Source: Butyrivibrio sp.
GTDB taxonomy: Bacteria > Bacillota > Clostridia > Lachnospirales > Lachnospiraceae
Direction of reading: 5' to 3'
Length of the DNA: 64,000 nt
Assembly (NCBI GenBank): GCA_016291375.1
Contig: JAEEXE010000007.1
Coordinates: 39,546 to 103,545, forward strand
Shown here: one piece after another, positions 24,110 to 60,605 of the stretch
Layout: every line of letters begins with the position of its first letter
Position numbering within the stretch: position 1 is the stretch's first letter
Program-made: the position numbers and the translations under genes
Notes under the pieces: generated by a model
Databases searched by the model: none
Seen by the model: only the letters and a program-made list of their open reading frames with translations
What the model was told of the DNA's origin: nothing

Positions 24110-24190
24110 GCACCAGCAACTGGCTGTCTTTCACATGTGTGATTAAGACCCTTTAGCTTTGCGTCACCATCTTTCAATGGCTTTGCCTTT
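24110..24190 (-). promoter_or_regulatory. cyclic di-GMP-I (GEMM-I) riboswitch aptamer
   Basis: Minus strand GGCAAAGCCATTGAAAGATGGTGACGCAAAGCTAAAGGGTCTTAATCACACATGTGAAAGACAGCCAGTTGCTGG: GAAA-capped P1 hairpin, GACGCAAAGC, second stem, CAGCCAGTTGC. Confidence 0.92.
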
Positions 24191-24493
24191 TAAACGCTTA
24201 GTTTACTCTGGAACAACAACGCTTCATTCAAGTAATTTATTTGTGTGATTACCAATATAAACTACTGGACACAAAAAAACAACTACTTTTTCACAAAAAG
24301 TTCACAGTTTCCATACAAAAATAGTATTTTCTTAGATTTCATCTGCATTTTGCGTATATAGGATTTTTTTAACTTTTTGCTTGGTTTCCAGTTTTTTCGA
24401 ATCAAAACTGATCCGTGCGAAAGGATTTTATATATTCTGTTTGAAATCATTATAACAGACCGCTCCGTTCTTTCGTTTACTTAAATTACGAAA

Positions 24494-56650: not shown

Positions 56651-59600
56651 TCACAACAATTCCATAATTCCGTCTCTGTCTACCGCCGCAAGAAGTCTCT
56701 TTGTTTCCTCATATTTTTCTTTATACTCATCGGGAATGTTATACTCACTTAGCATGTTCATAATGTCATCCGCACTGTCAAAATATGATCCCGAAACGAA
56801 TTCCTTTATTGAACGGAAGGCCCCCTCAAGCTCTTCCTTATCAATCTGCGGTTTGTCTGTAATCTCCTCATCTTCCCCAAAGGAAAGCTTGGAATAAAAG
56901 CTTCGATATTCTTCTACAAGTTCCTTATATTTTTCTTTTATCTTTTCTATATCCTTGTTAAGACCGCATTTTTCCATATACTCAGCCATTTCAGAAAGAG
57001 AAAAGGCTCCGATGGCTTTAGCTGAACTCTTAAGGCCATGAACATATATAGTAAAGTTCTTGATATCGCCTTTTTGGGCACTCTCTTCTATAAGATCGGC
57101 CCTCTCTTTTATGGTGAGTCTGAAGTCTTTCATAACATCCCTTGCAACCGTAGGTGATCCGCAGCGTGCTATGGCAGCGTTTATGTCAACGCACCTTGCC
57201 TTAAGAAGTTCTGCCATTGCCTCCTTCTCATTGTCGTCAAGTTCATCTTTTTGTTCTGACTCATAATCGGGGTCTCCGGGCTTTGATACCTTGTACTCAG
57301 GAAGGTAACTTAGTATCATTTCCTCAAGTTTTGGCGGATTAACAGGCTTTGAAAGGTAGTTTACAAAACCCTCCTTAAGATACATCTCTCTGGAACCCGA
57401 GATGGCATTAGCTGTAAGTGCCACTACCGGCGCGCCTTTACTTAAATTATCCTCCATTTTTTCCATGGTATGAAATGCCTGAATACCGTCAATGTCCGGC
57501 ATTCTGTGATCAAGAAAAATAAGGTCGTATTTATTTTTTTTGACCAATTCAAATGCTGCCTTGGCGCTTATAGCAGTGTCAACCTTGACCATTGTGTTCT
57601 TAAGAAGTCCTTCGATAACCGTAAGGTTGGTCTTAATATCATCAACTACCAGTATTGCTGCTGTTGGAGCGTGGAAGCTTTCCTTGTAGCTAAGCACACT
57701 TATGGCGTTGTCCTTATAGGTCTGTGTCAGCTTGCCTATCGGCTCTCTGCTCACCACTGTCTGCTCAAGATTAAAATAAAACTCCGATCCCACGCCGTAC
57801 TGGCTTTTTACTTCCAGACGCGATCCCATCATAAGAAGAAGGCTGCTTACAATAGTTATTCCAAGTCCTGTTCCTTCTATGGTCCTGTTTCTCTTTTCAT
57901 CAAGTCTTTCAAAGGCATCCGTGAGTCTCTCAATATCTTCAGCTTTAATTCCTATTCCGGTGTCTTTTATTCTCACCTTGAGAATTATCTTTTCATCAAA
58001 CTGCTCCTCAGGATATTCCGGAATGTAATCCTCATAGCCAACTTCAAAGGTAACGCTGCCTTTTTCCGTGTACTTTACGGCATTGGTCATGATGTTCATT
58101 ATGCACTGTTTTATGCGAATCTCATCGCCAAAAAGAATGTGCGGAATATTCTCATCAACATCCAAAATAAACTCAAGTCCCTTATCCTCTGCCCTTAGAA
58201 GTGCCATATTGGCAACGTCGTTAATAAGAGATCCAAGCTCATATTCCACGGGGATTATCTCCATTCTTCCCGCTTCTATCTTGGAAAAATCCAGGATATC
58301 ATTTATAAGAGCCAAAAGAGTCTTTCCTGAATTTTTAATATCCAGGGCATAGCCCAGAACTTCTTTGTCCTTACTCTCTCTTAGGATCATCTCATCAAAA
58401 CCAAGAACCGCATTTATAGGGGTTCTTATCTCATGAGAAATATTGGATAGAAACCTGGATTTTGCTTCATTGGCAAGCTTTTCTGTCTGTAGCTGATCCT
58501 CTATGACCTGTCTCGACTTAACAAGCTCGACGTATTCGATCAGCCTATACAAAGTTAGATCCACTGCGTGATACAGCTCTTCGATCTCATCGTCGGTTTT
58601 TATGGAAAGCTTATGGATTTCGCTGACTTTTTTGGCAATATCAATTTCTTCCGAATTGTAGATATCGGAAACTCCCTTAGAAAGATTCCTTATAGGCTCA
58701 GCAATCCTTCGCTGGGCAAATCTGTTTACGAATATGGCAAGGGGTATGACTATGATAGAGATAAGCATCGCAAGCTTGACGCTGTACTGGGATTTATTAA
58801 ACTCTCTTGCAGGCGCCACTGAACTTAGCATTCCGTGTTCTGAGATCAGGGTATTACTGACTATTCCCTCCAGCATTTCTGCATTCTGAGCGCTCACCCA
58901 TTCTCCGGATGCTTCATCCATGTAGGAGTCCTCTGACACAACACTCATGGTCGGTATCAGGGTATTGGCTGAAAGCTCCGCCGATATTCCAAGTACCAGA
59001 GCTTCAAACACAATGATCCCCATCACAACTCTACCGATCCTGGATTTTCCCTCTACGATGTATCTGTCGTCATCATCCAGAATATTGATATCCACGTAGT
59101 ATTTGCCGCTTCCAAACAAGAGCTTTTTGCTATCGGGAACAAATCTGAAAAAGAAATATACAAAAAGGCATCCTATCAGACACCCCGGCGCTTCGGCAAA
59201 AAAGAACTTCCAGAAATTGCCGACATTTATGCTCTGTGCAGGTCTTCCGCCCAAAAGGACCAGGATGGTTCCCCACAAATCTCCAACAAAAAGCTGCAGT
59301 ATAACTGAAGCAGCAAGGCACTTATACCATTTCTTAAAGAAGCCGTTTATGGTGAGTATATTAACAGTGCAGGCAACAACCAGATATATGAATGTAAGGT
59401 ATGAGAATCCACTGGACATAAAGCATCTGTATATGAATACTATGAGGACCATTCCCATTGCGGGAACTATGCCGCATATTGCAGATACGATTATGGTGGG
59501 AACGTATTTAAAGATATAGAAAAGATATGACAATGCGGCGTTGGAATTATCTAAGTAGTAGACGTTTCGGCTATAGATGATGGTAAAAAGGGATGCGATG

Positions 59601-59671
59601 AGAACAAGAACAAAATCCACCCGGTTTTTTTTGGATAAATTTGTAAGTAGTCTGCTATTCATGACGATCAC
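56651..59671 (-). CDS. hybrid sensor histidine kinase with REC and Hpt domains
   Basis: SNISHEIRTPINAVLGFDEM; HATPase; LIFLDHRMPDIDGIQAF; Hpt VHGLKSSAKAIGA. Confidence 0.94.
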   Translation of the reverse strand: MIVMNSRLLTNLSKKNRVDFVLVLIASLFTIIYSRNVYYLDNSNAALSYLFYIFKYVPTIIVSAICGIVPAMGMVLIVFIYRCFMSSGFSYLTFIYLVVACTVNILTINGFFKKWYKCLAASVILQLFVGDLWGTILVLLGGRPAQSINVGNFWKFFFAEAPGCLIGCLFVYFFFRFVPDSKKLLFGSGKYYVDINILDDDDRYIVEGKSRIGRVVMGIIVFEALVLGISAELSANTLIPTMSVVSEDSYMDEASGEWVSAQNAEMLEGIVSNTLISEHGMLSSVAPAREFNKSQYSVKLAMLISIIVIPLAIFVNRFAQRRIAEPIRNLSKGVSDIYNSEEIDIAKKVSEIHKLSIKTDDEIEELYHAVDLTLYRLIEYVELVKSRQVIEDQLQTEKLANEAKSRFLSNISHEIRTPINAVLGFDEMILRESKDKEVLGYALDIKNSGKTLLALINDILDFSKIEAGRMEIIPVEYELGSLINDVANMALLRAEDKGLEFILDVDENIPHILFGDEIRIKQCIMNIMTNAVKYTEKGSVTFEVGYEDYIPEYPEEQFDEKIILKVRIKDTGIGIKAEDIERLTDAFERLDEKRNRTIEGTGLGITIVSSLLLMMGSRLEVKSQYGVGSEFYFNLEQTVVSREPIGKLTQTYKDNAISVLSYKESFHAPTAAILVVDDIKTNLTVIEGLLKNTMVKVDTAISAKAAFELVKKNKYDLIFLDHRMPDIDGIQAFHTMEKMEDNLSKGAPVVALTANAISGSREMYLKEGFVNYLSKPVNPPKLEEMILSYLPEYKVSKPGDPDYESEQKDELDDNEKEAMAELLKARCVDINAAIARCGSPTVARDVMKDFRLTIKERADLIEESAQKGDIKNFTIYVHGLKSSAKAIGAFSLSEMAEYMEKCGLNKDIEKIKEKYKELVEEYRSFYSKLSFGEDEEITDKPQIDKEELEGAFRSIKEFVSGSYFDSADDIMNMLSEYNIPDEYKEKYEETKRLLAAVDRDGIMELL

Positions 59672-59739
59672 CCCACATGATAACCACGAAACTTTAACTA
59701 TCTACCGCACCACTATTTTACCACAATTAAGTGTGTGCA

Positions 59740-60101
59740 TAAACTATATAAAGTACTTTGACGATGAATATTTCCTGATACTTGCTCCTATTTTATGTAA
59801 TGGCTGTAGGTTTTTACAAAAAAGATAATTTGAACGCCGGCTTCGCCGTGATTCATGGTGCCAAAAATCAAACAGAGAATCTGTTGGTCCTAAACTCCTA
59901 TCGAACCCTGCGGGATTCGATAGTCAAACAACGGACCAAAAGCCAGATTCTCTGCTTTATTTTTATCACTCATGAATCTATCGGCTCTTCCAAAATGTTC
60001 AAATTATCTTTTTAGTAAAACTTACAGCCATAGCACATAAGTAATTATGAGAAGCAAGTATCAGAAAATATTCTTCCGGCAAAGTTCTTAATAGAGTTTA
60101 C
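59740..60101. repeat. giant imperfect hairpin element, copy A
   Basis: Arms pair over ~165 bp, e.g. ctgatacttgct…/agcaagtatcag, ggctgtaggttttta…/…aaaacttacagcc, aaaaagataatttgaac/gttcaaattatcttttt; core ttggtcctaaactcct-N22-agtcaaacaacggaccaaaagc. Confidence 0.88.
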
Positions 60102-60133
60102 TATAGCTAACTGATAGGCTGGCGACGGGTTAT

Positions 60134-60410
60134 TATTAATGCGGGGGTAGATGCGGAATTTGAGGGAATACTCTGAAAAACCGATTTTGAGCATTTTGCG
60201 CAAGCTGATAATCCATGAGCGTGAAAAATAATAAGCCAAGAATCTGCTTTTGGTCCGTTGTCTGACTGTAGCTTCCGTCAGGAAGCTGCAGGAGTTTAGG
60301 ACCAATAGATTCTTGGCTTGTTTTTTGAATGCTATGGATTACAGCTGGGGCAAAGCGAAAAATCGGTTTTTCAGAGTACACCCTACAAATCCGCAGTCCC
60401 CAATCTCTCA
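60134..60410. repeat. giant imperfect hairpin element, copy B (core inverted relative to copy A)
   Basis: Arms pair: tgcggaatttgaggg…tactctgaaaaaccgatttt / aaaatcggtttttcagagtacaccctacaaatccgca; core on minus strand attggtcctaaactcct-N22-agtcagacaacggaccaaaagc. Confidence 0.88.
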
Positions 60411-60605
60411 TTATTCGTAGTGGAGTGCCCAGTAGTTGTTTTTGTAATTGATGAGGCATGGCGCTGATGCAAAGGCTTCATCGCCGATGTAGCAGCGATC
60501 CTTCTCTTTATCGAAGGTATACTTCCTGCCCTCTTTGTCATGCTCATTGATATAAGCAAGAGCCTGCTCAAGGGTTTCATCTCCCTTGCAAAGATGTATA
60601 TTCAT
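60411..60605 (-). CDS. small hypothetical protein (64 aa)
   Basis: ORF with SD-like aaggagaaat before ATG. Confidence 0.55.
   Translation of the reverse strand: MNIHLCKGDETLEQALAYINEHDKEGRKYTFDKEKDRCYIGDEAFASAPCLINYKNNYWALHYE

Follow-up and report, generated by a model that had tools for sequence, protein, structure and literature searches.

What are the two long hairpins that fill the space between a hybrid histidine kinase gene and a small ORF in this Butyrivibrio genome? The window, by which we mean the whole 64,000-nucleotide stretch of DNA analysed here, contains the kinase at 56651..59671 (minus strand; an ORF whose N-terminal part is matched in 69 of 79 congeners) and the 64-aa ORF at 60411..60605 (minus strand), orthologues of which, 87-95% identical, lie beside the kinase in relatives. 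The initial annotation offered several readings for the hairpins: a structured RNA, a MITE-like or REP-like mobile element, and a retron-like substrate. Our answer, which we hold with a probability of about 60%, is that they are two neighbouring inverted copies from one family of giant palindromic DNA elements, dispersed and non-autonomous, that occurs in Butyrivibrio and some relatives. Elsewhere in the window there is a c-di-GMP-I riboswitch (24112-24197, minus strand, 71 bits).

The two elements stand side by side in inverted orientation (59746..60410 as a whole, no strand assigned) between the stop codon of the small ORF and the promoter side of the kinase, and both are missing from three relatives of the same genus with identical gene order. 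Alignment to one empty locus (L056) places the limits of the insertion at 59746-60409, i.e., 664 nt, with the right end at 60409 or 60410. Element A (59746..60101, plus strand, type 1) is defined by its fold and by the complementarity of its arms, which ranges from 75 to 96% by segment; the arms extend for approximately 95 bp outside the lower loop and include the pairs 59763-59789/60050-60076 and 59812-59835/59997-60020. Element B (60138..60410, minus strand, also type 1) is defined by its fold, with the arm pair 60152-60195/60352-60395, and its outer arm starts directly beside the stop codon of the 64-aa ORF. Both folds are far beyond chance: -150.8 kcal/mol for copy A (59731-60110, plus strand; z -18.0, none of 100 shuffles as low) and -127.4 kcal/mol for copy B (60125-60420, minus strand; z -14.2, none of 200 shuffles as low). 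The inverted repeats described initially, namely the arms of A and B and the repeat common to their tips (59862-59943 versus 60246-60327, 78%), were all recovered where they had been described.

The tips of both elements share a core, GGTCC-TA-AACTC-(apical helix)-TCARACA-AC-GGACC, that is read on the plus strand in A and on the minus strand in B. In A, core 1 (59886..59937, plus strand) consists of a P2 helix, AACTC (59893-59897), the apical helix, TCAAACA (59924-59930) and P2'; in B (60252..60303, minus strand), the same order is found with AACTC at 60292-60296 and TCAGACA at 60259-60265. Our covariance model R3 scores these cores at 67.3 and 67.9 bits, respectively, values that are not independent since both cores are among its training sequences. 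The common tip proposed initially, TTGGTCC-TAAACTC...TCARACAAC-GGACCAA, is correct, and its apical and lower stems have indeed changed while still pairing. The conserved internal loop is present as well, although narrower than first written (AACTC/TCARACA), and it is accompanied by a second conserved, asymmetric loop lower in the stem. In A (59835..59996, plus strand), this lower loop is formed by 59835-59849 and 59978-59996, with a bulge CTCATG on the 3' side; it was recognised by eye from the arm alignment and from segments common to copies C24 and C11, and it is weaker than core 1.

The covariation extends past the two copies from which it had been proposed. Among nine distinct core-1 sequences with the layout P2-(1-2 nt)-AACTC-(apical helix)-TCARACA-P2', both loop motifs are invariant, whereas the helices differ on both sides and still pair in 83.6% of cells, versus 55% in shuffles. 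The covariation score is 0.67; shuffled alignments score 0.20, with none out of 500 reaching the observed value, and sliding the pairing gives no more than 0.19. A strict core pattern found no match outside the own genome among 60 relatives, and covariance models were needed: model R1, built from A and B as the initial annotation had suggested, detected the core at two loci of G264, which belongs to a second genus within the family, and, among congeners, in G016 and G033, upstream of apt, where G370 has it too. One more copy is found in LB2008 (L342). Two further, larger loci in the own genome (C24:31973-32331 and C11:51454-51832) form hairpins of up to 600 nt, with DNA fold z values of -37 and -25, and an additional core of opposite strand is nested at their tips. 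The 600-nt hairpins at L022 7860-8495 and L023 7880-8470 have such a nested opposite-strand core 1, which gives the impression of an element inserted into another.

Core-1 loci are few (three places in the portion of the own genome that was read), and dispersal is best shown for a second type. When 1.78 Mb of the 3.0-Mb own genome (approximately 59%) were scanned for palindromes, about 13 giant foldback loci of 200-700 bp emerged, 7 of which carry a different tip, TTC-TNTGA-(RY-AAC-RY)-GAA, that defines type 2. The RY pairs change jointly around the AAC triloop, lower loops lie near GGACGAGCAG / CTGCGCAGACGA, and the covariation score is 0.635 versus 0.17 in shuffled alignments. Model R2, built for this type, has matches in 46 of the 79 Butyrivibrio congeners, with 0 to at least 44 copies per genome. 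When the exact tip pattern was searched in one genome per species (84,980 genomes), 70 matches were obtained, 54 in Butyrivibrio and 16 elsewhere; all 54 of the former lie on foldbacks, and none of the latter do. Type-2 candidates from a family-wide search that lie outside the genus (G072, G075, G086, G210, G226 and G267) were rejected: they score only 27-38 bits, and their folds look like simple terminator-like hairpins. Among viral contigs, neither the core-1 pattern nor a degenerate type-2 tip had any match, and a 16-base tip pattern gave 30, approximately the chance level by our estimate. The own genome also contains three related palindromes of 600-780 bp (L143 3006-3700, L168 4577-5216 and L120 15036-15818) with two small side hairpins near the tip, resembling a cruciform-like junction; by eye they have core-1-like loops in both orientations, and R3 gave no match to them. 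A dispersed, non-autonomous family of giant palindromic elements is well supported, and types 1 and 2 are likely of one kind, given their common size, build and empty sites.

Evidence for movement comes from orthologous sites. In three congeners (G036, G024 and G397), the order cbiA, 64-aa ORF and kinase is kept and the ORF is 94-95% identical, yet there is no hairpin. The best junction is 59746-60409, two other alignments placing the gap differently owing to short chance matches, and none of the four arms of A and B matches the empty loci above the shuffled level. In LB2008, the locus orthologous to the window holds a different giant hairpin (L078 1220-1450), and two insertions elsewhere in that genome are missing from sister species, where the orthologous sites consist of approximately 40-90 nt that contain ordinary terminators and, by eye, nothing resembling the arms. 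Near apt, other species have a plain terminator that separates a tRNA gene from the gene before it; in its place, type-2 hairpins are seen at L035 2266-2472 and L043 2491-2664. The same 259-bp element, arms included, is present at unrelated sites in G370 (LB2008) and G033 (M55), and there is a second set of four copies. Two features expected of a MITE, copies dispersed over non-homologous sites and orthologous sites that lack the element, are both found, in support of the initial suggestion of a hairpin mobile element; for type 1, they amount to an empty site and several loci, with no whole-element match between unrelated sites. End tags are specific to type-2 subfamilies, and the target-site duplications that had been suggested as a further sign were not clear at any of the sites compared. 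Part of this picture can also be produced by slow vertical inheritance accompanied by gains and losses.

Over longer times, orthologous arms change in concert. Between the apt orthologues of G033 and G370, the arms differ by 17 double changes, 10 of them from one Watson-Crick pair to another, against an expectation, by our own estimate, of about 2 if the arms changed independently. Isolated mismatches over the whole arms of 39 type-2 palindromes, read on the tip strand, show no G-U preference (22.5 G-T versus 27.5 A-C, p 0.48), and thus there is no sign that the arms are held by pairing of a one-strand RNA; the same null result would, however, arise if convergent neighbours caused both strands to be transcribed. 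In the type-2 core (inner 120 nt), the tip strand has a borderline excess of G-T over A-C (13.5 versus 4, p about 0.05); on the model-fitted alignment, which leans towards standard pairs, the counts are 30 versus 6. Wobble pairs are few (1.4%) in 80 type-2 cores, which counts in favour of the mobile-element reading. The initial proposal of a structured RNA under selection therefore stands as far as structure is concerned, the covariation being real, whereas the wobble preference is absent from whole arms on either strand and borderline on one strand of the type-2 core. Strong covariation alone is no proof of a functional RNA. Template switching is a published route to arm homogenisation (PMC8794818), and such correction probably keeps the arms complementary here. 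It explains the concerted arms without RNA selection, in which case the loops, which the same correction would erase, must be held by selection. The system is thus a natural test of template-switch correction, with arms that change in concert and mismatched loops that are protected. With arms of 100-300 bp, palindromes should be unstable in bacteria, and one genus nonetheless keeps and spreads dozens of them.

The alternative that the elements are structured RNAs, i.e., 3'-UTR or terminator/stabiliser hairpins, possibly protein-bound via the conserved loops and dispersed as a by-product, draws on their placement. At 29 of 32 resolvable type-2 loci, there is a sense gene upstream with its stop codon a median of 11 nt before the element, and 22 of the 32 lie between convergent genes, a placement that counts in favour of the mobile-element reading as well; moreover, the inner type-2 stem with its A-run and T-run resembles a bidirectional terminator. 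Copy C24, between divergent genes and not after a stop codon, departs from this placement and goes against the mobile-element picture. The strong covariation of core 1 and type 2 and the borderline G-T excess on the tip strand of the type-2 core also agree with an RNA. On the other hand, the whole arms have no wobble preference, cores on opposite strands are nested in single hairpins (C24 and C11), copy number varies from none to dozens among congeners, and Rfam has no match. Taken together, we consider the RNA explanation unlikely.

Two other origins appear far less probable. On the one hand, the elements could be retro-elements, folded RNAs copied in by an RT supplied in trans, for example that of a group IIC intron, as a bacterial analogue of SINEs. 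Group IIC introns are known to choose targets by inserting behind terminators; two LB2008 copies directly follow the T-tract of an intrinsic terminator, and the corresponding gene end in G016 (L376 8810-9138) holds a group II intron (RF02001, 138.5 bits) directly behind a terminator. RT-driven spread merits a test on these grounds, and the evidence goes no further: the majority of copies start about 11 nt past the stop codon with no separate terminator ahead of them, neither poly-A nor a 5' truncation series is seen, and a regular-expression test of 1.66 Mb of the own genome, window included, found no RT motif, a result that also leaves the retron-like substrate proposed initially without support. 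On the other hand, the arms could be snap-back copies of the local host sequence beside a small core, an origin that we rate slightly lower still. Arms do run into gene 3' ends in some copies (L291, L294, L267, L268 and L280), and L284 has ten extra arm bases relative to its orthologue L278 that match the unchanged right flank, although a deletion beside the hairpin in L278 explains this difference equally well. As a general origin of the arms, local inverted duplication is contradicted by arms that move with the element to unrelated sites and by the lack of arm sequence at the empty sites of A and B; it may be a source of edge growth.

If the elements are mobile DNA, as we favour, their mechanism can be proposed by analogy with REP/attC-type hairpins. 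One strand, exposed during replication or by supercoil extrusion, would fold, and from the asymmetric loops an enzyme provided in trans would recognise the strand and the end at which to cut, a role that bulges play in REP, IS608 and attC hairpins; the element would then be copied or pasted. By this analogy, an enzyme acting on the folded single strand probably recognises the strand-specific internal loops. Template switching between the arms during replication would keep them complementary, so that the arms would drift jointly while selection held the loops, and copies would persist mainly behind stop codons, where they might do least harm and could act as terminators. As for the engine, Y1_Tnp (PF01797) occurs in 60 of the 79 congeners; it was not found in the type-2 carriers G000, G033, G024, G021, G026, G384 and G036, some of which are incomplete genomes, although G033 (100%, 15 copies) and G024 (99%) are nearly complete, and type 2 is missing from Y1-rich genomes, for example G358. 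We therefore rejected Y1/RAYT as the engine, as it does not correlate with the presence of type 2. Whether the family amounts to a new class of mobile element, in which the substrate of transposition is a giant single strand in folded form, either DNA or an RNA that an RT copies in trans, and is read via conserved strand-specific loops, with arms free to change in concert and a spread to dozens of copies per genome where no known transposase is resident, is a more tentative matter; we regard it as possible rather than probable. The conserved loops offer a concrete handle for finding the enzyme.

How do these elements compare with known systems? Covariance models of the current Rfam release gave no match to the hairpins at gathering score (best sub-threshold MIR2646, 33 bits versus 245), and Rfam long-hairpin matches for the window hairpins were spurious. 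In the literature searched, no paper paired Butyrivibrio with palindromic repeat elements, and the genus goes unmentioned in an ncRNA survey of 50 genomes. Within Rfam and this literature, the kind of element is previously undescribed, in agreement with the initial view that it is novel.

Like REP/REPIN sequences (GTAG- and CGTC-tagged; PMC3733652), the elements are dispersed extragenic palindromes, often behind genes, between convergent genes or in inverted pairs such as A and B; one type-2 subfamily has GGACG/CGTCC at one edge, and CGTC repeats, too, occur without a known transposase (PMC3733652). However, REPs are 20-40 bp long with short stems, of 8-9 bp in CGTC families (PMC3733652), whereas the Butyrivibrio elements have 200-700 bp, several conserved internal loops and freely varying arms, and several carriers lack Y1/RAYT. 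They do not have the short (20-40 bp) palindrome with a GTAG or CGTC foot that marks REP/RAYT elements, the CGTCC edge being confined to some type-2 copies, and membership in REP/RAYT is not supported. Bacterial MITEs (reviewed in PMC10969869) are likewise non-autonomous, palindromic, intergenic and multicopy. Here, unlike in MITEs, the hairpin interior is conserved rather than terminal repeats, and the ends differ by subfamily; no parent insertion sequence was recognised, and no clear target duplication was seen at the sites compared. Integron attC sites are imperfect hairpins in which unpaired bases mark the strand, a feature shared with our elements; the arms of the latter are far longer, and the conserved attC boxes (R/L) are not evident in them by eye. 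With group IIC introns they have in common one site, where a group II intron lies directly behind the terminator, but they are without ribozyme domains or RT, and Rfam group II models match neither the window nor L366, L367 or L371, L376 alone having such a match. Finally, in their location and in the A/T-runs around the type-2 inner stem, the elements resemble intrinsic terminators and 3'-UTR RNA hairpins, from which they differ in being many times longer, dispersed with conserved loops and missing at orthologous sites.
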